Source of the DNA: Sulfolobales archaeon
Lineage (GTDB): Archaea > Thermoproteota > Thermoprotei_A > Sulfolobales > AG1
Length of the DNA stretch: 64,000 nt
Direction: 5' to 3'
NCBI GenBank assembly: GCA_038881635.1
Contig: JAVZPJ010000002.1
Span: 120,369 to 184,368, forward strand
The notes beneath the pieces were generated by a model. The model ran no database searches and was not told where the DNA came from. It was given only the letters and a program-made list of their open reading frames with translations. Shown one piece after another: positions 37,309-48,316 of this stretch. The position numbers and the translations under genes were made by a program. Numbering within the stretch: the first letter of the stretch is position 1; each line of letters begins with the position of its first letter.

Positions 37309-38847
37309 ATGAGTAGTAGAGATACCATTCTCATAATAGATTTTGGAGGGCAATACGCGCATCTTATAGCTAGAAGAATTAGAGGATTGAACGTGTATAG
37401 TGAGATTGTGGCTGCAAGAGATCTGTCTAGAGATCTTGTTGAGAGGATCAGACCTAAAGGAGTCATACTATCTGGAGGTCCTTCAAGTGTTCTCGACCCA
37501 GGCTCGCCACTACCTCCACGATGGATTACAGAGCTTGGAATTCCCGTTCTCGGAATATGTTATGGTCATCAAGCTCTGGCTAAGGAGTTTGGTGGAAAGG
37601 TTTCGAGGGGGAGAGGTGAGTTTGGAAGAACCTTCATAAGAATTCTCTATAAAGATCCTATAGTAGAGGGTTTGGAAGATAGAGAAGAGGTTTGGATGAG
37701 CCATTCAGACTATGTTGAGAAACCTCCTGAGAATTCAGATGTGATAGCGGTCTCCGAGGATACAGGGTATATAGCAGCTTTCAAACTTAGAGATAAGCCT
37801 GTTTATGGTGTTCAATTCCATCCAGAGGTTTCTCATACGAAGAAAGGTTTGAAGATCTTGGATAATTTCATAAGAATATCGGGAGCTTCTAGGAGCTGGA
37901 GAGCTGGAGATATGGTTGAGAATATTATAAGGGATATATCAGATAGAGTTGGCAAGGATGAGAAGGTTCTCTGTGCTGTAAGTGGTGGCGTGGATTCTAC
38001 TGTCACAGCTCTTCTAATTAGAAAAGCTATTGGAGATAGACTTGTAGCGGTATTCGTTAATCATGGTTTTCTCAGAGAAGGAGAAGCTGAAGAGGTTCTG
38101 AGAAGTCTCAGAGATCTTGGTATAGAGCCTAGATATATAGATGCTTCTGAGAGATTTCTCAGAGCTCTTAAAGGTGTTTCAGATCCTGAAGAGAAAAGAA
38201 GAATCATAGGAAAGATCTTCGCAGAGATATTCATAGAGATAGTAAGAGAAGATCCCAGCATAAAATGGCTTGCTCAGGGAACTACGTATCCTGATGTTAT
38301 AGAGAGCGGTTCAAGACCTCATTCTGCAAAGATCAAGACTCATCATAATGTAGGAGGACTTCCTAAGGATCTAGGACTTAAACTTCTCGAACCCTTAAGA
38401 GAGTTCTACAAAGATGAGGTGAGAGAGATCGGGAGAAGACTTGGAATTCCTGAGAATATCCTCAGAAGACACCCCTTCCCAGGTCCCGGTCTTGCTGTGA
38501 GAATCCTTGGTGAGATTTCCGATGAAAAGCTTAGAATAATTAGAAGAGCTTCAGCTATAGTTGAAGAGGAGATCAGAAGAGCAGGATTGTATGAGAGATT
38601 ATGGCAGGTGTTTCCAGTACTTACAGAAAGCATGTGGGTTGGTGTGGCAGGAGATGTAAGAAGAGAAGGATTCATACTGATCCTGAGAGCTGTTGAAAGC
38701 GAGGATGGAATGACCGCTGACTGGGCTAGGATACCCTATGAGGTTCTGGATAGAATCTCTCTAAGAATAACAAGTGAGATACCTGAAATTACAATGGTAG
38801 CATATGCTGTAACGCCTAAGCCTCCTTCAACCATAGAAGCTCAGTAA
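37309..38847 (+). CDS. guaA: GMP synthase (glutamine-hydrolysing), single chain
   Basis: Converts XMP to GMP with ATP and glutamine. The class I amidotransferase domain occupies about residues 1-195, with the nucleophile C84 in GICYGHQ and the His-x-Glu pair in FHPEVSHT. The ATP pyrophosphatase domain begins about residue 200, with the PP-loop SGGVDST from 225. The dimerisation domain with HPFPGPGLAVRILGE follows. Many euryarchaea split this enzyme in two genes; the fused 512-residue form here fits a crenarchaeon. ATG at 37309 follows GAGGATCTTA. Confidence 0.97.
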   Translation: MSSRDTILIIDFGGQYAHLIARRIRGLNVYSEIVAARDLSRDLVERIRPKGVILSGGPSSVLDPGSPLPPRWITELGIPVLGICYGHQALAKEFGGKVSRGRGEFGRTFIRILYKDPIVEGLEDREEVWMSHSDYVEKPPENSDVIAVSEDTGYIAAFKLRDKPVYGVQFHPEVSHTKKGLKILDNFIRISGASRSWRAGDMVENIIRDISDRVGKDEKVLCAVSGGVDSTVTALLIRKAIGDRLVAVFVNHGFLREGEAEEVLRSLRDLGIEPRYIDASERFLRALKGVSDPEEKRRIIGKIFAEIFIEIVREDPSIKWLAQGTTYPDVIESGSRPHSAKIKTHHNVGGLPKDLGLKLLEPLREFYKDEVREIGRRLGIPENILRRHPFPGPGLAVRILGEISDEKLRIIRRASAIVEEEIRRAGLYERLWQVFPVLTESMWVGVAGDVRREGFILILRAVESEDGMTADWARIPYEVLDRISLRITSEIPEITMVAYAVTPKPPSTIEAQ

Positions 38848-39076: not shown

Positions 39077-39394
39077 TTGCAAATAAAGCATTTATATGGG
39101 TTATGTATTTTGAGGTTTCTAAACATAGATCGGATTATAATTCCTATAGGCGTTCTCAGAATCTCTCCAGAACTTTGTAAGGGCTGTGGTTTCTGTATAG
39201 AGTTCTGTCCTAGAAGTATTCTAGAGTTTTCTGAAAACGTGAATCTAAAAGGCTATCATTATCCTCAGATCAAGAAGGGTATGGAGATGAGTTGCGCAGC
39301 GTGTGGTATGTGTCAAAGACTTTGCCCGGATTATGCGATATATCTTGAAAAGATCATCAGAGCCCCTGCGAAGGAGATTACTCTAAAGAGGTGA
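39077..39394 (+). CDS. korD: 2-Oxoacid:ferredoxin oxidoreductase, delta (ferredoxin) subunit
   Basis: Small 2[4Fe-4S] subunit passing electrons from the catalytic subunits to ferredoxin. The two cluster motifs are CKGCGFCIEFCPRS and CAACGMCQRLCPDY. The frame opens at TTG 39077, but the predicted transcript starts around 39095, so the TTG at 39110 or a later codon is likelier. Members of the family usually begin shortly before the RISPELCKGCG stretch. It is the first gene of a tight operon, five bases before korA, and the KorD-A-B-C set is the archaeal four-subunit type. Confidence 0.88.
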   Translation: MQIKHLYGLCILRFLNIDRIIIPIGVLRISPELCKGCGFCIEFCPRSILEFSENVNLKGYHYPQIKKGMEMSCAACGMCQRLCPDYAIYLEKIIRAPAKEITLKR

Positions 39395-39399
39395 AATGA

Positions 39400-40554
39400 A
39401 TGAGTTCTGAGAAGCTTCTGAAACCTGGGAAGTATTTTATGCAAGGCAACATAGCTATGGCTGAAGCAGCTCTCATAGCTGGGTGCAGGTTTTATGCTGG
39501 ATATCCTATAACACCTTCCAATGAGATTGCTGAGTGGATGTCTAGAAGACTTCCCGAGGTTGGTGGAGTGTTCATTCAAATGGAGGATGAGATAGGATCT
39601 ATAGTAGCTGTATTAGGAGCTTCTGCAGCAGGTGTTAAAGCTATGACAGCAACCAGCGGTCCTGGTTTTAGTCTGATGATGGAGTCTGTTGGACTGGCTT
39701 CTATGATGGAGATTCCTGCGGTTATAATTGATGTGATGAGAGCCGGACCTAGCACTGGTATACCAACTCTTGTTGGGCAGGGAGATGTGATGCAGGCTAG
39801 ATGGGGTTCTCACGGTGATTACGAGATCATAGCTTATCTTCCTAATAGTGTTCAGGAGGCTTTTGATATGACTATCAAGGCGTTTAATAATTCTGAGAGG
39901 TTTAGAGTTCTATCGATAGTCCTAGCAGATCAGGTTATAGGTCATATGACTGGGAGGCTTGTGGTACCCGAGTATAGTGAGATAGAGATCGTTTATAGAG
40001 AAACTCCTAAGGTACCTCCCGAGGAATATCTGCCGTTTGACTCTAGATATCTAGTGCCTCCCATGGCTATCGCAGGGTCGGGGTATAGAGTTAACTATGA
40101 TAGTCTCACCCATACTGACATAGGCTATCCAACAGTTGATCGTGAAGATTCTTTCAAGCTTGTATCGAGACTTGTAAGAAAGATCAGAGAGAATGAAATG
40201 AAGATCGCTGAGTGGGAAGAGTACGAGACAGAAGATGCCGAGGTTCTGACAGTAGCCTATGGATGCACATCGAGATCTGTTAAAGAGGTTGTTAAGAGTA
40301 TGAGAAAGAGAGGTTATAGAGTAGGACTTTATAGACCTAAGACAGCATGGCCATTCCCCTGGTGGAGACTTAAAGAACTTTCAAGGAAGATTAACAAGAT
40401 CGTTGTATTCGAGATTAATATGGGTCAGGTCTTCCACCTTGTAAGAGAGTATGCTGCTAGAGATGTAGAGATTCTTCACGCACCCTACGCACCTGGATAC
40501 ATGCCGGATCCAGGGTATATTGAGAGTATTTTAATGAAGGTGTATGGAGCATGA
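39400..40554 (+). CDS. korA: 2-Oxoacid:ferredoxin oxidoreductase, alpha subunit
   Basis: Catalytic subunit with the pyrimidine-binding part of the thiamine site, 384 residues. Family marks: GNIAMAEAALIAGCRFYAGYPITPSNEIAEWM (in short pieces at about residues 16-47), the cofactor contact MEDEIGSIVAVLGASAAG, ATSGPGFSLMMESVG and the domain III end. The sequence groups with 2-oxoglutarate:ferredoxin oxidoreductases, but 2-oxoisovalerate or another 2-oxoacid is possible. ATG 39400 follows GAGGTGAAATGA; its stop overlaps korB by four bases. Confidence 0.93.
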   Translation: MSSEKLLKPGKYFMQGNIAMAEAALIAGCRFYAGYPITPSNEIAEWMSRRLPEVGGVFIQMEDEIGSIVAVLGASAAGVKAMTATSGPGFSLMMESVGLASMMEIPAVIIDVMRAGPSTGIPTLVGQGDVMQARWGSHGDYEIIAYLPNSVQEAFDMTIKAFNNSERFRVLSIVLADQVIGHMTGRLVVPEYSEIEIVYRETPKVPPEEYLPFDSRYLVPPMAIAGSGYRVNYDSLTHTDIGYPTVDREDSFKLVSRLVRKIRENEMKIAEWEEYETEDAEVLTVAYGCTSRSVKEVVKSMRKRGYRVGLYRPKTAWPFPWWRLKELSRKINKIVVFEINMGQVFHLVREYAARDVEILHAPYAPGYMPDPGYIESILMKVYGA

Positions 40555-41435
40555 GTGAGAGATTTAGATTAAAAGAATTCTCGAAAATCGCACTAGCCAG
40601 CCAGTATGAAGGTTTGGAGAGTGTCATCAGAATAGATAGGATGCCCCATATATTCTGTCCAGGCTGTGGTCTTGGAATAGTATTGAAAGGATTGGCGGAA
40701 GCTATACTCAAATCAGGAATACCAGTCGAAAAACATGTAGGAGTATCAGGAATAGGATGCACTGGAAGACTTCCCGGATATCTGAGAATTGACGCATATC
40801 ATGTGACCCATGGAAGAGCTATACCATTTGCTATAGGACTTAAGCTTGCTAATCCAGCGCTAGAGGTCACAGTAGTAGGCGGAGATGGAGATATAGTAAC
40901 GATAGGAGGTAATCACTTTATTCATGCTGCTAGAAGAAATCATGATATCAATGTTGTTATAGTTAATAACTTCATATATGGAATGACAGGAGGACAGTAT
41001 GGCGCTACAACACCTGTGGGATCTCTTACAACCACATCGCCTTATGGACATCTAGAGTACTCATTTAACATACCTCTGCTGGCATATGCTTCTGGAGCTA
41101 CATTCATAGCTAGATGGACTCCTCTTCACTATGCTCAGATGGTTGATGCGTTTCTACAGATGTTCGAGCACAAGGGATTTGCAGTGGTAGAGATAGTAGC
41201 TCCATGTGTTCTATATGGTGAGAGGAATCAATTCCCATCCTATACTGATATGCTAAAGTACTTTAGAGATAGATGTATCATAGATCATGAAGCTGATCTA
41301 AGGAGGATAGGAATCTCACTAGAGAAGACAGAACCTCTAGTTCTAGGAAACTTCTACAAAGCTAGAAAGAAGACCTATGAGGAGATGTATAGAGAACTTG
41401 TAGAGAAGATCTCTAGAGGAGGTGGGAGAGAATGA
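40551..41435 (+). CDS. korB: 2-Oxoacid:ferredoxin oxidoreductase, beta (TPP) subunit
   Basis: Binds thiamine diphosphate and a [4Fe-4S] cluster, 294 residues. The cluster cysteines begin in FCPGCGLGIV (about residues 34-43). The TPP/Mg motif is GGDGDIVTIGGNHFIHAARRNHDINVVIVNN (in short pieces at about 108-140), followed by YGMTGGQYGATTPVG. VEIVAPCVLYG carries a further Cys. The product of the reaction would be an acyl-CoA, CO2 and reduced ferredoxin. ATGA overlap with both korA and korC shows coupling. Confidence 0.94.
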   Translation: MSERFRLKEFSKIALASQYEGLESVIRIDRMPHIFCPGCGLGIVLKGLAEAILKSGIPVEKHVGVSGIGCTGRLPGYLRIDAYHVTHGRAIPFAIGLKLANPALEVTVVGGDGDIVTIGGNHFIHAARRNHDINVVIVNNFIYGMTGGQYGATTPVGSLTTTSPYGHLEYSFNIPLLAYASGATFIARWTPLHYAQMVDAFLQMFEHKGFAVVEIVAPCVLYGERNQFPSYTDMLKYFRDRCIIDHEADLRRIGISLEKTEPLVLGNFYKARKKTYEEMYRELVEKISRGGGRE

Positions 41436-41989
41436 TGCTTAGAGTAAGATTTGGAGGCTTAGGAGGTCATGGAATACTTCTAGCAGGTAGAGTACTAGGT
41501 ACTGCAGCCATATATGCTGGTTATGATGCTATAATGACCATAGCGTATAGTCCTGAGCAGAGAGGTGGGTGGTCTAAAGCTGATGTTATAATATCTGATG
41601 AGGAGATAGACTATCCGTATCTGATCCAACCTGATATACTTGTTGTAACCACTCAGGAGATGTATGAGAGAGAAATCGAATCATTACCTCTCGAGGGATT
41701 TCTGATCTATGAGTCTTCTCTTGTGAAGCCTTCGAAAACCATTGACAAGATGATTGGAATCCCAGCGATAAGCATTGCGGAAAAAAGTGTGAAGAGGAGA
41801 ATTGCTATGAACATGGTTTTAGTAGGTGGTGTAGTAGCTCTCTCAGGATTCATAGATCCTAGATATGTCGAGAGTTCTATAAGAAGTATTGTGAGGAAGG
41901 GAACTGAAGATATGAATGTCACAGCATTTTACAAAGGCTTTGAATATGTAAGAGAGATCGCGAGGATAGGAGGTGTCAAACTTGAGTAG
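41432..41989 (+). CDS. korC: 2-Oxoacid:ferredoxin oxidoreductase, gamma subunit
   Basis: The CoA-side structural subunit, 185 residues. The N-terminal GGLGGHGILLAGRVLGTAAIYAG (in two parts, about residues 8-30) and SPEQRGGWSKADVIISDEEI are diagnostic for the gamma domain. It completes the D-A-B-C set, with subunits split as in methanogen-type 2-oxoglutarate oxidoreductase rather than fused as in Sulfolobus. Its stop lies inside the start region of the giant HdrA gene, so the oxidoreductase and Hdr proteins are made from one message. Confidence 0.93.
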   Translation: MMLRVRFGGLGGHGILLAGRVLGTAAIYAGYDAIMTIAYSPEQRGGWSKADVIISDEEIDYPYLIQPDILVVTTQEMYEREIESLPLEGFLIYESSLVKPSKTIDKMIGIPAISIAEKSVKRRIAMNMVLVGGVVALSGFIDPRYVESSIRSIVRKGTEDMNVTAFYKGFEYVREIARIGGVKLE

Positions 41990-44900
41990 TGTGAACAGAG
42001 TTCTGGTTATAGGCGGAGGTATAGCAGGGATACAAGCATCTCTAGATCTAGCAAGCTCAGGTGTTAAAGTAGTTCTAGTAGATAGATCTCCTACTATAGG
42101 AGGTAAGATGGCTCTTCTAGACAAGACATTTCCCACGTTAGATTGTAGTATTTGCATAGAAGGACCTCTGATATCTGATGCAAGTAGACATCCTAATATA
42201 GAGCTTCTAGCCCCTGCTGAGATTATAGAGGTTTCAGGAGATAAACCTCCTTATAGGGTTAAGATCCTCGTGCATCCTAGATATGTTACTGATGCATGCA
42301 CTAAATGTGGTAAGTGTGCTGAGGAGTGTCCTGTAGTAGTTCCATCTGAATTTGATGGAGAGATAGGGCTTAGAAAAGCTATATTTCTACCATTCCCGCA
42401 AGCCGAACCTGGAAGATATATGATCGATATATACAACTGTCTTAATAAACCTCCCAACTATATGCCTTGTGATAGATGTGTCAAAGCCTGCGATATAAAG
42501 GCTATCGATTTTCTCATGAAACCTACTATAATCGAGAGAGAGGTATCATCGATAATAATAGCCACAGGATATGAACTCATAGACCCGGCTAAGATCCCGT
42601 GGACTGGCTATAGTAAGTATCCTAATGTTATAACATCTTATCAGTGGGAGAGAATGATCAATGCTGCAGGACCTTCGATGGGTCATATAGTGAGGCCAAG
42701 CGATCATAGAGAGCCTGAGAGTATTCTATTCATATCATGCGTTGGTTCTAGAGATAGAAGGTATACACCTACATGCTCAGCATTTTGCTGTACATATCTT
42801 CTTAAACAAGCTATACAAGCTAAGATACATAATATAAAGCATGTCTCAATACTCTATATGAATGATATAAGAACCTATGGTAAAGGTTTTGAACATTTCT
42901 ATAGAAGAGCTAGAGAAGAAGGTGTTGAAATATTATTTGGAAAACCTGTAGGCATTGCTGAAAGAAATGGAAAACTTCTAGTTAGATTCGAGAACACTGA
43001 GAAAGGCTTTATCGAGGAGAGAGAATTCGATCTAGTTGTTCTAGCTCCGGCGGTGAAGCCTTCAAGAGATATTGAGAAGCTGGCTAAGATAATCGGTGTC
43101 GAAATCGATGAACACGGGTTTATTAGAACTTCTCCTGTTAATCCTGTTCAGACATCTAGAGAGGGCGTATATGTAGCCGGGTCGGCATCGCATCCTAAGG
43201 ATATATGCGATAGCGTTATAGAAGGTGCTGCGGCAGCTGCTATGGCTCAGAGAAGTATAAGAATTAGAGAGTGGCCTTACAAAGAATTCAAACCAGATCC
43301 CGAGATAAGATATGAAGAACCTAGAATAGGAGTGTTCATATGCCACTGTGGTACCAACATAGCTGGTGTAGCTGATGTTCCTAAGCTTGTTGAGATGAGC
43401 TCTAAGCTTCCCGGAGTTGTTCATGCTGAGGATCTCATGTTTGCATGCGCCAGGTCAGGACTTGATAGGATTAGCCAGGTTATTGCAGAGAAGAAGCTTA
43501 ATAGAGTGATTGTAGCAGCATGTAGTCCTGCAACTCATCTTAGATTCTTCAGAGATGCTGCAGCTAATGGAGGTATGAATCCCTATACCGTTGACATGGC
43601 TAACATAAGAAACCTCTGTACATGGGTTCATCCGGATACTTCTATCGCTACTAGGAAGTCTTTTGATATGATTAAAATGGCTGTTAGAAAAGCTTTCTAT
43701 CTAAGACCTTTGGAGAAGATCAAGGTTCCCGTGGTTAAAAGAGTTCTAGTAATAGGTGGAGGACCTGCAGGGCTTGCAGCAGCTATAGCAACTGCGAGAG
43801 CAGGAATTGAGACTATACTAGTAGAGAAAGAACCTGAGGTAGGAGGTTTTCTCAGGATCCTCAGCAGAATAGCTCCTAGAGGTGTGAATGCTAGAGAGCT
43901 TTTAGAGGATCTTGTTAGAGAAGCTTCTGAGGCAGGTGTGAAGATACTTACAAATACAAGAGTTGTAGAGGTCTCAGGATTCGTAGGACAGTTCCAGGTT
44001 AGATTAAGTAGCGGTGAAGAGCTTACAGTAGGTGGTATAATTGTCGCAGTAGGCGGAGAACCTTACACGCCTAATGAGCTGGGCTACGGTGTTAGAAAGA
44101 ATGTTCTCACAACACTAGACCTAGAGAGAGTAGGTATCGAAAGTCTGGGTAAGAGTGTTGCTATAGTGAATTGTGTGGGTTCTAGAAACAAGCTCAGAGG
44201 ATGTTCTAGGTTCTGCTGCCAGCTGGCACTTTACAAGGCTTTGGAGATTAAGAGAAGCGGTAGAGAGGTATATCTCATATATAAGGATCTGATGGCATAC
44301 ACACCTGAAGCAGAAGATCTATATAGAGAGGCTGCGAGAGAAGGTGTTATATTCGTTAGAATACCTAGAGACTCTGATCTTACAGAAGTTGTGAGACTCG
44401 ATGATGAAGGTTTGAAAGTATTCGATAGAGAATTGGGTTCAGAGATTGAAATCCCCGTAGATACAGTGATACTCAATATAGGGCTTGCGCCTGGGAAGAG
44501 TATTGATGAGATAGCTAGTATACTTAGAATATCAAAGGATAGAGAAGGATTCCTACTAGAAGCCCATCCAAAACTAGGTCCTGCAGAAACTCTTACAGCA
44601 GGGATCTTTCTAGCAGGAGTAGCTCAAGGTCCTAAGAGTATTAGCGAGAGTATAGCTCATGGAATGGCTGCAGCTTCTAGAGCTATATCTGTTCTCAGCA
44701 TAGGTTTTGTCGAGAAAGATCCCTTCATACCTCAGATCGATATGAAGAAGTGTAGATTATGCATGCTCTGTACCAAGGTATGCCCCTATGGAGCTTTAAA
44801 GGGTGAGGTTGGTAAGTATCTGAACTTCTCACCTGCAGCATGCATGGGTTGTGGTGCTTGTGCTGCTGAATGTCCTACAGGTGCGATTACCATACCAGCA

Positions 44901-45386
44901 TTCACAGATGAAGATATATTCGCTCAGATAGATGCAGCTCTAGAAGAAGAACCCGAGAAGAAAGCTATAGTATTCACATGCGCCTACTGTTCATACGCGG
45001 CATCAGATAATGCGGGAATACTAAAGCTACAGTATCCTGCAGTGGGGAGGACCATAAGACTTCTATGCTCTTCAAGAGTATCTTGGAAGCATATTGAGAG
45101 AGCTTTTGCCAGAGGTGCTGGAATGGTTCTCGTGACGGGATGCAGGCTTGGAGACTGCCACTTCATAACAGCTAATTACAATACCGTGAGAAGATTTGAA
45201 ATGTGGAGGAAGAGAATCGAGCATCTAGGCATAAGACCTGAGAGACTTCAGCTAAGACTGTTCGGAGCCCCCGATGTAACAGATCTTGTTGAAGCTATGA
45301 GAGAAGCTGAAAGAGTTATAGCATCTCTTAAACCAGAGGAGGTCAGAGAAACTATTGTAAAACTGGGTAAATCAATCGGCAGGTGA
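41973..45386 (+). CDS. hdrA: HdrA-HdrA-MvhD fusion protein (1137 aa)
   Basis: A giant flavin/iron-sulfur protein. Residues about 10-440 are an HdrA flavin module: FAD loop VIGGGIAGIQAS, cluster segment DKTFPTLDCSICI, an inserted ferredoxin (CTKCGKCAEECP about 108, CDRCVKAC about 167). Residues about 448-570 match the HdrA N-terminal domain (ICHCGTNIAG, VVAACSPATHLRFF). A second flavin module starts at about 591 (VIGGGPAGLAAA) without the inserted ferredoxin. Two [4Fe-4S] motifs follow (CRLCMLCTKVCPYG, CMGCGACAAECPTG), then an MvhD domain (FTCAYCSYAASDNAG, GCRLGDCHF). HdrA flavin is the bifurcating centre in methanogens. TTG 41982, six bases after GGAGGTG, is the likely start rather than GTG 41973. 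Confidence 0.92.
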   Translation: MSNLSSVNRVLVIGGGIAGIQASLDLASSGVKVVLVDRSPTIGGKMALLDKTFPTLDCSICIEGPLISDASRHPNIELLAPAEIIEVSGDKPPYRVKILVHPRYVTDACTKCGKCAEECPVVVPSEFDGEIGLRKAIFLPFPQAEPGRYMIDIYNCLNKPPNYMPCDRCVKACDIKAIDFLMKPTIIEREVSSIIIATGYELIDPAKIPWTGYSKYPNVITSYQWERMINAAGPSMGHIVRPSDHREPESILFISCVGSRDRRYTPTCSAFCCTYLLKQAIQAKIHNIKHVSILYMNDIRTYGKGFEHFYRRAREEGVEILFGKPVGIAERNGKLLVRFENTEKGFIEEREFDLVVLAPAVKPSRDIEKLAKIIGVEIDEHGFIRTSPVNPVQTSREGVYVAGSASHPKDICDSVIEGAAAAAMAQRSIRIREWPYKEFKPDPEIRYEEPRIGVFICHCGTNIAGVADVPKLVEMSSKLPGVVHAEDLMFACARSGLDRISQVIAEKKLNRVIVAACSPATHLRFFRDAAANGGMNPYTVDMANIRNLCTWVHPDTSIATRKSFDMIKMAVRKAFYLRPLEKIKVPVVKRVLVIGGGPAGLAAAIATARAGIETILVEKEPEVGGFLRILSRIAPRGVNARELLEDLVREASEAGVKILTNTRVVEVSGFVGQFQVRLSSGEELTVGGIIVAVGGEPYTPNELGYGVRKNVLTTLDLERVGIESLGKSVAIVNCVGSRNKLRGCSRFCCQLALYKALEIKRSGREVYLIYKDLMAYTPEAEDLYREAAREGVIFVRIPRDSDLTEVVRLDDEGLKVFDRELGSEIEIPVDTVILNIGLAPGKSIDEIASILRISKDREGFLLEAHPKLGPAETLTAGIFLAGVAQGPKSISESIAHGMAAASRAISVLSIGFVEKDPFIPQIDMKKCRLCMLCTKVCPYGALKGEVGKYLNFSPAACMGCGACAAECPTGAITIPAFTDEDIFAQIDAALEEEPEKKAIVFTCAYCSYAASDNAGILKLQYPAVGRTIRLLCSSRVSWKHIERAFARGAGMVLVTGCRLGDCHFITANYNTVRRFEMWRKRIEHLGIRPERLQLRLFGAPDVTDLVEAMREAERVIASLKPEEVRETIVKLGKSIGR

Positions 45387-45390
45387 TCTT

Positions 45391-46536
45391 ATGAGAGTTG
45401 ATCCAGGTATTAGAGAAAGACTTATAAGAAGATCCTCAGGAACCCTCGGGTTATGCTACCAATGTGGAACATGCACTGCTATATGTCCTTTAGCAGGAGA
45501 TTCCTCGGTAAACTATATAAGAAAACTAGTTAAATACGCTCAGTACGGGATCATACCGTCTGAAGAAGATCTAGTTAGAATAGTATGGAACTGCACAACC
45601 TGCGGTGTATGCGCTTCATCTTGTCCTAGAGGGGTTGACATACCAGGTGTAATAAGAGGTTTTAGAGAGATTTTATCCGAGAAGAAGAGGGATCAGAGGT
45701 TTTCAGAAGTTCTTTGGAGACTTTATGAAGCTGGAAATCCTTGGGGTTATGGATCTGGCGAGATCAGGAAATTCAGGATCAGTTTCAGAGATCTTCAGAT
45801 TTCTAGCGGTTCTAAACCTGATTATGTTATATATCCATGCTGTTTCACAACCATAGATCCTCTCTCTCAGAAGATTCTTAGATCTGTTATAAAGATCTTC
45901 AGAGCTGCAGGTTTTAACATTGGGGTAGTAGATTCCATGTGCTGTGGTGATGTAGCATATCAATCTGGAGAGATCTACTTCCTAGAAGAATATATTGGAA
46001 GACTTAGAGAGCTTCTCGAGAAGATCGAAGCACCTTTAGTAGTTCTATCACCTCACACACTCTACATGTTTAGAAAGATATATCCAGATCTAGGGTTTAA
46101 AATGCCCGTAGAAGTATACCATCATACAGAGGTACTCTCAGAACTACTCTCTAAAGGTAAGATAAGAGTTAGAGAGCCTGAAAACATTCATATAGTGTCA
46201 TATCATGATCCATGTTATCTGGCTAGATACTTGAGGATACATGAAGAGCCTAGAAATATCATAGAAAACATACCTAGGATAAGATTCATTGAAATGGAGC
46301 ATACTAGAGAAAATACTCTATGCTGCGGTGCTGGTGGTGGGATGATCTTTGCCAGGGAAAGTAGTGTGAGAATAGCTGTGAATAGAATTAGAGAAGCTGA
46401 GGCTGTAGGTGCGGAGGTTCTTGCCACAGCATGCCAGTTCTGTATGAGAATGTTCGTGGACGAGCTTAAGATCAGGAAGTCTAGTATATCAAGTGTTGCT
46501 GATGTTTCAGAGCTTATCTCATCTAATATGGTGTGA
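45391..46536 (+). CDS. HdrC-HdrB fusion (HdrD-like) iron-sulfur protein
   Basis: A 381-residue fusion of an HdrC-type 2[4Fe-4S] domain (C22, C25, C28, C32 in CYQCGTCTAICP; second set CTTCGVCASSCP around 71) and an HdrB-type domain with two CCG motifs (YPCCFTTID...SMCCGD and HDPCYLAR...TLCCGAGGGM). In methanogens CCG domains hold the noncubane clusters that cleave a disulfide; elsewhere related proteins serve lactate, glycerol-phosphate or thiol/disulfide chemistry. The electron acceptor here is unknown. ATG 45391 follows a perfect GGTGATC site four bases after hdrA. Its stop overlaps etfA. Confidence 0.92.
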   Translation: MRVDPGIRERLIRRSSGTLGLCYQCGTCTAICPLAGDSSVNYIRKLVKYAQYGIIPSEEDLVRIVWNCTTCGVCASSCPRGVDIPGVIRGFREILSEKKRDQRFSEVLWRLYEAGNPWGYGSGEIRKFRISFRDLQISSGSKPDYVIYPCCFTTIDPLSQKILRSVIKIFRAAGFNIGVVDSMCCGDVAYQSGEIYFLEEYIGRLRELLEKIEAPLVVLSPHTLYMFRKIYPDLGFKMPVEVYHHTEVLSELLSKGKIRVREPENIHIVSYHDPCYLARYLRIHEEPRNIIENIPRIRFIEMEHTRENTLCCGAGGGMIFARESSVRIAVNRIREAEAVGAEVLATACQFCMRMFVDELKIRKSSISSVADVSELISSNMV

Positions 46537-47525
46537 TCTTTATGGAGGCTGAGTGGAGAGGTTTTGGAGTGTATATAGAACAGGATGAGGGGATTGTTGA
46601 AGAAACATCTCTAGAGATACTAGGAAGAGTAAGAGAACTTGGCGATAAATTTAATATCCCTGTGTCAGCATTTCTCCTAGCAGATTCTGCGAGAGATATA
46701 GTGAAGAATATATATTCTTATGGTGCTGATAGAATTATATATGTTGAGAATCCTCTCTTCAGATCATATCACTCGGATCTGTTCTCAGAAACTTTGGTTA
46801 GATTGATTAGAAAGTATAAGCCTAGATACCTTCTACTTCCTGCAACAAGAGATTCTAGAGATCTTGCTGGTAGAATTGCTGTGATGCTTAGAACATGTCT
46901 TCTTGCACATGTTATATCTATAGATATAGAGCCTAGTAGCATGAGGATGAACGCGATGGTTCCAGGATTTGGAGGTAGCATTGCTGCGGTTTGCGAGTGT
47001 ACTACAATCCCCGAGATGGCTACTGTGACACCTGGTGTTTTCAAACCTGTTTCTAGAGAGGATCTGAAGCCTGAGATCATCGATGAAAGCGAGATCGCCA
47101 GAGACCTCAGTAGTAGCATTAGGAAAATCAGAAGATTCAAGGAAGCTAGACCTGACATCTCTAAGGCTGAGAGAATTGTGATAGCAGGAGCCGGATGTCT
47201 TCAAGATCTTGAAGCTGTAAAAGATCTGGCTAGAATTATGAGGGCTGAATACGCCGTGACAAGACCTATTGCTGATGCAGGACTCGCTCCAAGAGATCTT
47301 CAGGTGGGGTCTACAGGTATATCTGTTAAATCTAAGATAGCTCTGATTCTAGGAGCTAGCGGTGCTCCTCATTTTGTTTCAGGGATCAGAGATTGTAAAT
47401 ATGTGGTTTCTGTGAATATAGATCCTGAGGCTCCTATAAGAGAGTACTCAGATCTATTCATAGTAGGAGATCTATATGAGTTTCTTAGAAAGCTTAGAAA
47501 AAGACTTGAGGAGGTGGGAGGATGA
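46533..47525 (+). CDS. etfA: Electron transfer flavoprotein, alpha subunit
   Basis: EtfA, 330 residues. The C-terminal FAD domain is unmistakable: GAGCLQDLEAVKDLARI, then RPIADAGLAPRDLQVGSTG, then KSKIALILGASGAPHFVSGI and the closing VSVNIDPEAPI and YSDLFIVGD. The N-terminal half has the usual alpha/beta fold with RYLLLPATRDSRDLAGRIA. ETF carries electrons between dehydrogenases (acyl-CoA, lactate and others) and a second acceptor. No dehydrogenase or FixC/FixX partner lies nearby, while hdr genes do. Overlaps the gene before (ATGATC region) and etfB after. Confidence 0.93.
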   Translation: MIFMEAEWRGFGVYIEQDEGIVEETSLEILGRVRELGDKFNIPVSAFLLADSARDIVKNIYSYGADRIIYVENPLFRSYHSDLFSETLVRLIRKYKPRYLLLPATRDSRDLAGRIAVMLRTCLLAHVISIDIEPSSMRMNAMVPGFGGSIAAVCECTTIPEMATVTPGVFKPVSREDLKPEIIDESEIARDLSSSIRKIRRFKEARPDISKAERIVIAGAGCLQDLEAVKDLARIMRAEYAVTRPIADAGLAPRDLQVGSTGISVKSKIALILGASGAPHFVSGIRDCKYVVSVNIDPEAPIREYSDLFIVGDLYEFLRKLRKRLEEVGG

Positions 47526-48316
47526 GTAAGCCTCTGTACGTGGTTACTATGAAGGTTGTTCCTAAAACTGAGGAGATCAGATTTGATCCGAATACAAAAA
47601 CTGTAGATAGATCTAAGGCAACAAACGAGATTAATCAAGCCGATAAGAATGCACTTGAGGAAGCTCTAAAGCTTAAAGAGAGATATGGCGGCAGAGTTCT
47701 AGTACTCTCTATGGGACCTCCCTTCTTCGATCCGTTTCTTAGAATAGCTTTAGCAATGGGTGCTGACGACGCCATACTAATAAGCGATAGAGTTCTTGCA
47801 GGAAGCGATGCTTATGTCACATCAATGGTCCTGGCAAGAGCTATACAGAAGATAGGTGGGGCAACTCTAGTTCTATGTGGCGAAGAAAGTTCAGACGGCT
47901 CCACAGGTCAGGTTCCTCCAGGAATTGCTGCATGGCTTGGATACTCTCAAGCCACATATGTATCGAAAATACTTGACCTAGATCTCGAGAGGGGAAGAGT
48001 AGTCGTAAGAAGAACTATAAAGGGAGGTTATGAAGATATAGAGCTTCCAATACCTGCAGTACTCTCAATAGAGCTCGGTATCAATACACCTAGATTCCCG
48101 GACTTCAGGAGAAAGAAGTGGGCTGAGAAAGAGTACAAGCTAACAATATGGAGTGCAGCAGATCTCGGATTAAAACCTGATGAGGTAGGTCTGATAGGAT
48201 CTCCTTCTAGAGTTAGAGAACTTGTAGAGATCAAGCCTCCTGAAAGAGCTCGAAGAATTATTGAAAACATAGATGAAGGCGTTGAGGAATTCCTCAGAAT
48301 TCTAAAGAGTATCTAA
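47522..48316 (+). CDS. etfB: Electron transfer flavoprotein, beta subunit
   Basis: EtfB, 264 residues. The N-terminal KVVPKTEEIRFDPNT and NEINQADKNALEEALKLKE, plus LSMGPPFFDPFLRIALAMGADDAILISD (in pieces, about residues 62-90), are standard. The nucleotide loop is ESSDGSTGQVPPGIAAWLG (about 121-139). In non-bifurcating ETFs this loop binds AMP; bifurcating types have a DGDTAQVGP-like loop that holds a second FAD, and the DGSTGQVPP here is closer to that pattern. ATG overlaps the etfA stop (ATGA). It is the last gene of the operon. Confidence 0.92.
   Translation: MSKPLYVVTMKVVPKTEEIRFDPNTKTVDRSKATNEINQADKNALEEALKLKERYGGRVLVLSMGPPFFDPFLRIALAMGADDAILISDRVLAGSDAYVTSMVLARAIQKIGGATLVLCGEESSDGSTGQVPPGIAAWLGYSQATYVSKILDLDLERGRVVVRRTIKGGYEDIELPIPAVLSIELGINTPRFPDFRRKKWAEKEYKLTIWSAADLGLKPDEVGLIGSPSRVRELVEIKPPERARRIIENIDEGVEEFLRILKSI

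Follow-up and report, generated by a model that had tools for sequence, protein, structure and literature searches.

A conserved eight-gene operon of Thermoproteota that may couple a 2-oxoacid:ferredoxin oxidoreductase to an electron-transfer flavoprotein through a double HdrA

In a 64,000-nucleotide stretch from a Sulfolobales archaeon (assembly GCA_038881635.1, contig JAVZPJ010000002.1; the whole stretch is called the window below), eight genes in the order korD-korA-korB-korC-hdrA-hdrCB-etfA-etfB span positions 39077-48316. They encode the four subunits of a 2-oxoacid:ferredoxin oxidoreductase (Kor), a fused double HdrA of the heterodisulfide reductase (Hdr) type, an HdrC-like protein with two CCG domains (HdrCB), and both subunits of an electron-transfer flavoprotein (ETF). 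We found the same order in eight families of Thermoproteota, and the eight genes very probably form one functional unit. As a model for this unit we propose a soluble iron-sulfur flavoprotein system in which Kor is coupled to ETF through an HdrA hub; taken as a whole, the model stands evenly balanced between being right and wrong. In the literature, HdrA is wired to hydrogenase, Fdh, MetFV (methylenetetrahydrofolate reductase), FdhB/F420, NADH and Flx modules, and CCG proteins adjoining etfAB are described. Full-text searches, with subscription literature outside their scope, returned no description of a Kor-Hdr-Etf operon, in line with a preliminary description of this DNA, made from its letters, which knew of no established system of this kind. 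HdrA-based electron coupling with a 2-oxoacid oxidoreductase and an ETF as partners appears to be new.

Conservation and inheritance of the operon

We used the HdrA fusion as query against 98 relatives, 214 genomes of the order and 398 genomes across the phylum, and then read the neighbourhoods of the matches. The results showed that the eight-gene order is complete on a single contig in 18 genomes, all of them Thermoproteota, with 34-85% protein identity to the window. These are the window's genome, its closest relative in the sample (G001), the cultured organism Vulcanisaeta distributa (G288), and G108, G112, G113, G269, G303, G313, G314, G318, G319, G339, G343, G348, G358, G398 and G442. 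In 8 more genomes (G024, G033, G093, G111, G114, G293, G323 and G516), it is cut off at a contig end, divided among contigs or interrupted by a frame break. The carriers are heat-loving archaea of the families numbered f1, f5, f7, f10, f21, f25, f31 and f37; within the family of Vulcanisaeta, the operon is confined to that genus. A strict scan with an exact peptide pattern of HdrA, the sole scan reaching genomes outside Thermoproteota, matched the sister metagenome-assembled genome only.

Across the phylum-wide sample of 398 genomes, operon-type HdrA and operon-type EtfA were found in the same 20, of which G524 and G533 rest on fragmentary assemblies. In this sample, full-length operon EtfA proteins scored 436-529 bits and two fragments 384 and 308 bits, and the best other EtfA reached 319 bits. 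HdrA matches above 1,500 bits all lay in the operon, save one paralogue of V. distributa (L123). The preliminary description had read the genes as a single Kor-Hdr-Etf operon and had suggested a search of archaeal genomes for the order; the 18 complete and 8 partial cases in eight families, and HdrA and EtfA types that always occur together, bear it out. The order is not confined to one genome, and the sets do not lie far apart in relatives.

Pairwise-distance correlations among the eight proteins ranged from 0.83 to 0.97 in 19 genomes. Seven of the eight gene trees (all but that of korD) group the window's genus (f1) with Vulcanisaeta, which belongs to another order, and the home order as a single clade was rejected on a quick tree of the concatenation (p-AU 3e-88). 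The gene trees largely agree with one another, yet depart from taxonomy, which shows that the eight genes are passed on together, by descent or by transfer. The patchy occurrence together with the agreement among genes suggests whole-block transfer; lineage-specific loss may be another source of the patchiness.

Domains and flavin sites of the HdrA fusion

The HdrA chain of 1137 residues is composed of two halves. The N-half is a flavin adenine dinucleotide (FAD) domain with an inserted ferredoxin domain (residues 8-427). The C-half contains the N-terminal domain of HdrA (447-580), a second FAD domain (588-905) and a 2x[4Fe-4S] domain (918-975), followed by a FlpD/MvhD domain (998-1119). Alignment to the methanogen HdrA 5ODC gave three blocks, in which residues 8-358 match its FAD domain and inserted ferredoxin, 448-597 its N-terminal domain and 830-989 its C-terminal part, and FlpD comes after these. 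The Cys sets of HdrA are invariant in the orthologues, and the five Cys of FlpD are kept in 23/23.

In the HdrABC dimer, the N-domain cluster of an HdrA chain receives Cys197 from its partner chain as a ligand (PMC9012536). Cys61 of the fusion corresponds to Cys197 by position and is invariant; it lies in the half without the N-domain, and the half with the N-domain has no equivalent Cys. The two halves thus complement each other, and a single chain comprises both partners of a dimer, as has been suggested for other double HdrAs. K409 and E356 are the residues marking bifurcating HdrA flavins (PMC12054007). In the N-half, Lys278 at the K409 position was found in 24/24 orthologues, and residue 226 at the E356 position is Glu in 18 and Asp in 4 of 22. 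In the C-half, Glu718 is kept in 25/25, and the Lys position is occupied by Tyr, His or Ser, with Lys only in the six sequences of f21; a Lys one residue after the K409 position is present in f1 and f31. With both residues kept in one half and the Lys mostly lost from the other, these patterns point to one bifurcating-type flavin, and the N-half FAD is rather likely to be the sole bifurcating site.

The methanogen systems HdrABC-MvhAGD and Fdh-Hdr-Fmd have the same HdrA FAD domain with inserted ferredoxin, N-terminal domain, C-terminal 2x[4Fe-4S] domain and FlpD/MvhD, as well as the same HdrC-like cubane clusters, and can feed a low-potential enzyme directly. Unlike in these systems, the two HdrA halves and FlpD are fused here in one chain, the operon has no formate dehydrogenase and, unlike Mvh-Hdr, no NiFe hydrogenase, HdrCB is without a complete first catalytic cluster site, and the partners are Kor and EtfAB. 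Type II (double) HdrA of anaerobic methanotrophic archaea (ANME) and methanogens also has two FAD domains per chain and the Cys197/N-domain complementarity (PMC12054007; HdrA3/HdrA4, PMC9012536). It clusters with FdhB and molybdopterin proteins, whereas the present fusion clusters with Kor and Etf, carries FlpD at its C-terminus and has lost the key Lys in the C-half of most orthologues; its N-domain lies in the C-half, opposite to the order stated for ANME HdrA3/4. QmoAB(C) and QmoAB-HdrBC of sulfate reducers resemble it in having a QmoA-like half, a QmoB-like half with FlpD and an HdrC/CCG partner. Unlike in Qmo, the halves are fused here, there is no membrane QmoC, and no apr or dsr genes were seen beside the operon.

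Other double HdrAs were seen in the same searches. A second fusion of 1226-1255 residues (L123:7650-11635 in V. distributa, L126:7632-11713) has no Kor-Etf context and is followed by an HdrC-like protein of about 100 residues (102 in L123). Other families of Thermoproteota (L149-L157; f14 and others) have a double HdrA of about 1000 residues with separate FlpD and HdrC and upstream ferredoxin-domain proteins.

HdrCB and the electron-transfer flavoprotein

The hdrCB gene directly precedes etfAB, and the nearest solved chain to its product is 9OJN, EtfD of Mycobacterium smegmatis. Mycobacterial EtfD passes electrons from ETF to menaquinone; its D1 is a linear [3Fe-4S] cluster, its D2 is a noncubane [4Fe-4S] cluster completed by His583 and hence non-catalytic, and the ETF-linked FadF and DgcB are without the D1 cysteines (PMC13083937). 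Across 22 orthologues of HdrCB, the D2 ligands C275, C311, C312, C348 and C351 of the second CCG domain and H222, the equivalent of His583, are invariant where the residues are present. The first CCG domain has lost its CxxC, with Ser220 in 22/22 and Cys at residue 223 in 12/22. HdrCB is thus like EtfD, FadF and DgcB (PMC13083937) an HdrC plus CCG protein with the D2 noncubane cluster of five Cys and a His kept and the D1 site degraded. Unlike them, it is soluble, without haem or membrane part, is tied to HdrA and Kor rather than to menaquinone, and keeps three D1-site Cys. No hydrophobic or transmembrane segment was found in its 381 residues by a test that detected a QmoC-like control protein. 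In HdrF3-EtfBA of Desulfobacterium autotrophicum (PMC2702500), the HdrF3 gene adjoins etf as hdrCB does here. From this ligand pattern and gene position, HdrCB is probably a partner of the ETF.

An HdrB-type disulfide reductase has two complete noncubane sites, each with CCG and CxxC, and HdrCB has one of them incomplete. Heterodisulfide reduction takes a pair of catalytic noncubane clusters, so HdrCB is unlikely to reduce disulfides. HdrB-type clusters acting on disulfides or quinone-like acceptors, as supposed in the preliminary description, therefore do not fit a protein with one incomplete catalytic site out of two and with its other Cys and His ligands arranged as in EtfD (PMC13083937).

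The nearest solved structures to EtfAB are bifurcating ETFs. EtfABCX and Bcd/Car/Ldh-EtfAB share its ETF fold and are its closest solved relatives, and their bifurcation depends on the Arg of an RPxFGG motif next to N5 of the bifurcating flavin (LctC R205, CarE R203, T. maritima R140); Ldh-EtfAB, CarCDE and T. maritima EtfABCX no longer bifurcate once this Arg is exchanged (PMC9232219, PMC10734219). We aligned EtfA to 5ol2, 7koe, 6fah, 7qh2 and 4kpu, and found Val143 at the position of this Arg in 21/21 orthologues; 5ol2, 7koe, 6fah and 7qh2 have Arg. The operon, unlike those systems, also has no FixC/X, Bcd or Ldh. Because Val replaces the bifurcation Arg, the operon ETF is probably not bifurcating and a plain shuttle. 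This change contradicts the bifurcating EtfAB of the preliminary description and makes the NADH part of its NADH/acyl-CoA couple at ETF doubtful (PMC9232219, PMC10734219). At the flavin/AMP (adenosine monophosphate) site of EtfB, checked across 19 orthologues, the window has DGSTGQVPP, compared to DGDTAQVGP of bifurcating ETFs. The Gly123 position holds Gly, Ala or Ser in the orthologues and the motif is otherwise changed; canonical ETFs have a bulky residue there (PMC12630350). Judging from these residues, the site may hold FAD or AMP.

The operon EtfAs also share a clade signature, all reading SGAxHF within residues 274-281, where the bifurcating 5ol2 and 7koe read SGAIQH at the alpha-FAD. 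Two further ETFs are encoded in the window's genome. One belongs to a separate EtfABCX-like set (L049, contig C7) with the bifurcation Arg kept and an unusually long EtfB (open frame of 412 residues), and the other lies beside a 3-hydroxyacyl-CoA dehydrogenase-like gene (L050).

The Kor subunits and candidate outside partners

The four Kor subunits follow in the order D-A-B-C, with the thiamine pyrophosphate (TPP) domain and the cluster cysteines present. The eight Cys of KorD are invariant in 22/22 orthologues, and Cys36, 39, 70 and 219 of KorB in 23/23. The nearest solved chains to KorA are 1yd7 (2-keto acid oxidoreductase) and 8ys5 (2-oxoglutarate synthase). KorA clears the general 2-oxoacid model (NF006412) only and falls below the 2-oxoglutarate cut-off.

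Acyl-CoA dehydrogenases, the usual ETF donors, number 2-10 per genome in 19/19 operon genomes tested. NiFe hydrogenase and a NuoF-type NADH module were considered as general mid-potential partners and rejected, being missing from about half and most of the carriers, respectively. The window's genome has a second Hdr cluster on contig C11 (L035:4794-13752) with a QmoC-like membrane protein, unfused QmoA- and QmoB-like HdrAs, FlpD, a NiFe hydrogenase large subunit, and apparent small-subunit and maturation genes; the set looks like a hydrogenase of the Mvh type connected to a Qmo-like membrane Hdr. Starting at 14374 of L035 on the other strand is a cluster that resembles complex I and includes a match to a hydrogenase family.

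Proposed electron path and alternatives

From the domain and ligand make-up, the eight proteins likely form one physical complex, and we infer an electron path, its direction and a mid-potential partner as follows. Hdr complexes use the inserted ferredoxin domain as low-potential exit and FlpD or the C-terminal ferredoxin as mid-potential port (PMC9012536, PMC12350162), and Kor was assigned to the inserted-ferredoxin branch on this ground. On the low-potential branch, KorABC would oxidise a 2-oxoacid (2-oxoglutarate or similar) and KorD would deliver the electrons to HdrA at the ferredoxin insertion of the N-half. On the high-potential branch, acyl-CoA dehydrogenases with genes elsewhere in the genome would load EtfAB. 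As a non-bifurcating shuttle, EtfAB would exchange electrons with HdrCB through the noncubane cluster of that protein, whose two cubane clusters would relay them to HdrA. Both branches would converge at the single bifurcation-competent FAD of the N-half. The C-half would give the N-terminal cluster domain that is supplied in trans in a normal HdrA dimer, and its FlpD would be the port for a third, mid-potential partner from outside the operon. In heterotrophs such as Vulcanisaeta, the system would work by confurcation, merging at an intermediate potential the electrons of 2-oxoacid and acyl-CoA oxidation, which are two steps of the same amino-acid breakdown. 2-Oxoacid oxidation lies at about -0.5 V and the acyl-CoA/enoyl-CoA couple at about 0 V, so the merged electrons would come to lie near NADH or sulfur. 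V. distributa depends on sulfur or thiosulfate to accept its electrons (PMC3035369), which favours the oxidative direction; we give confurcation no more and no less than an equal chance. More tentatively, and on balance short of that, the operon may define a hitherto undescribed class of electron-confurcating complex with a 2-oxoacid oxidoreductase as built-in low-potential partner, a non-bifurcating ETF on an EtfD-type wire as built-in high-potential partner and one asymmetric single-chain HdrA pseudo-dimer, so that one flavin would collect the electrons of two consecutive oxidations in the same catabolic pathway.

Several observations weigh against this reading. The FlpD port, kept in all orthologues, has no obvious universal partner, since NiFe hydrogenase matches are absent in 9/19 operon genomes and the NuoF-type module in 15/19; this is the main gap. 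Acyl-CoA dehydrogenases are also encoded in several relatives without the operon, so their link to it is permissive, not specific. In the f21 sequences the C-half flavin of HdrA also has its Lys, and some of the beta-FAD motif is retained in EtfB together with a small residue at the Gly123 position, so that beta-FAD could bind. The first site of HdrCB still has Cys151, 184 and 185 invariant, unlike FadF and DgcB, and an unusual small cluster there is possible from these residues. AlphaFold models of HdrCB and the HdrA fusion, made from two-row alignments, had pLDDT of 42 and 37 and were uninformative.

The lack of a universal mid-potential partner among the 19 operon genomes, in which NiFe hydrogenase and the NuoF-type module were examined, also speaks for a wire without bifurcation, in which 2-oxoacid electrons run downhill from KorD through HdrA and HdrCB to EtfAB and reduce enoyl-CoA via acyl-CoA dehydrogenase in a redox-balanced fermentation. 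The loss of the bifurcation Arg in the ETF agrees with such a wire, and a direct link from a donor dehydrogenase to butyryl-CoA dehydrogenase is an established role of canonical ETFs (PMC12630350). It is nevertheless unlikely, as a two-ended wire would not need the K409/E356-type residues that the N-half flavin has in all orthologues, and an FlpD with five Cys kept in 23/23 would be superfluous. Distinctly unlikely is the reductive direction, with bifurcation of electrons from a mid-potential donor: the high-potential electron would pass by way of HdrCB and ETF to enoyl-CoA and the low-potential one directly to Kor for the reductive carboxylation of acyl-CoA (2-oxoacid synthesis), as Hdr feeds formylmethanofuran dehydrogenase in methanogens. 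Direct feeding of a CO2-fixing enzyme by Hdr is established for Fdh-Hdr-Fmd complexes, as cited in PMC12350162 and PMC12054007, and KorA is nearest to 2-oxoglutarate synthase-type enzymes; the acceptor requirement of V. distributa, the best-known carrier (PMC3035369), fits oxidative use better, and the carriers have no common mid-potential donor module.

The contacts among the operon proteins are predicted ones, and a one-pathway operon is possible without physical contact. The genes could thus encode three separate enzymes that are merely co-regulated, with Kor making ferredoxin, the Hdr-type complex using it, ETF serving acyl-CoA dehydrogenases, and exchange via free ferredoxin only. This is improbable in view of the strict gene order over eight families, the overlapping starts, sets that are never found apart and an HdrCB specialised as ETF acceptor; the other Kor and ETF sets of the window's genome stay un-united elsewhere. 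The version of the preliminary description, with two bifurcating flavins in HdrA and EtfB, NADH and a disulfide at Hdr, agrees with bifurcating ETFs being closest to EtfAB among solved structures and with the parts of the beta-FAD and NAD motifs that are kept. Against the Val in 21/21 EtfAs (PMC9232219, PMC10734219) and the incomplete first HdrB-type cluster site in 22/22 HdrCBs, we consider it highly improbable.

If confurcation through the HdrA hub is true, crenarchaeal peptide fermenters and sulfur respirers would own a dedicated system in which electrons of very low and of high potential from amino-acid breakdown are brought together, which bears on how these organisms handle the electrons of acyl-CoA oxidation. 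The operon would also be a natural example of an ETF fold that is kept while bifurcation has apparently been given up, with HdrA taking over. Its presence in the cultured V. distributa makes the model open to experiment.

Gene layout and neighbouring genes

The genome measures 1.4 Mb, and the operon is on its contig C2, with all eight genes on one strand (Table 1). The gaps are of at most five bases, and the genes otherwise overlap; the list of open reading frames agrees in this with the tight spacing first described, and Pfam and NCBIfam family scans agree with the gene names. Within the eight-gene run there is no hydrogenase, FixC/X or acyl-CoA dehydrogenase, as had also been stated. An in-frame TTG at 39110 is as likely a start of korD as 39077.

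Table 1. Genes of the operon in the window
Gene	Position	Strand	Product	Family evidence and junction
korD	39077..39394	+	2x[4Fe-4S] ferredoxin-like delta subunit	Fer4 families, best match OGOR_delta
korA	39400..40554	+	2-oxoacid:ferredoxin oxidoreductase alpha subunit, KorA/OorA type	NF006412, 508 bits (cut-off 411)
korB	40551..41435	+	TPP-binding beta subunit, [4Fe-4S]	PF02775; ATGA overlap with korA
korC	41432..41989	+	gamma subunit	PF01558, NF006323 best; ATGA overlap with korB
hdrA fusion (1137 aa)	41973..45386	+	double HdrA + FlpD/MvhD	Pfam/NCBIfam and alignment to 5ODC; 17-base overlap with korC
hdrCB	45391..46536	+	soluble HdrC-like 2x[4Fe-4S] + two CCG domains	PF02754, Fer4_8
etfA	46533..47525	+	ETF alpha subunit	PF01012, PF00766; GTGA overlap with hdrCB
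etfB	47522..48316	+	ETF beta subunit	PF01012; ATGA overlap with etfA

Upstream of the operon lies guaA (37309-38847), with an AT-rich gap between. The flanking genes are mostly unrelated between families, and among the neighbourhoods compared no gene family beside the operon is shared by more than three families. We considered a conserved ninth gene of the operon and rejected it, as only a small Cys-rich protein and a divergent gene of helix-turn-helix (HTH) type recur, each in 2-3 families. The small Cys-rich protein (99 residues) is encoded directly 3' of the operon (window:48489-48788, L032:9639-9947), and its relatives in f21 and f37 are upstream and divergent. Immediately upstream of the operon in the same two families, a divergent gene of 326-355 codons with weak HTH matches (L132:4082-5068, L138:3867-4934) is a candidate regulator. 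The f21 genomes also have a second 2-oxoacid oxidoreductase set, with distant relatives of KorA and KorB, about 1 kb upstream of the operon (L129:1529-3998, L132:1711-4052).

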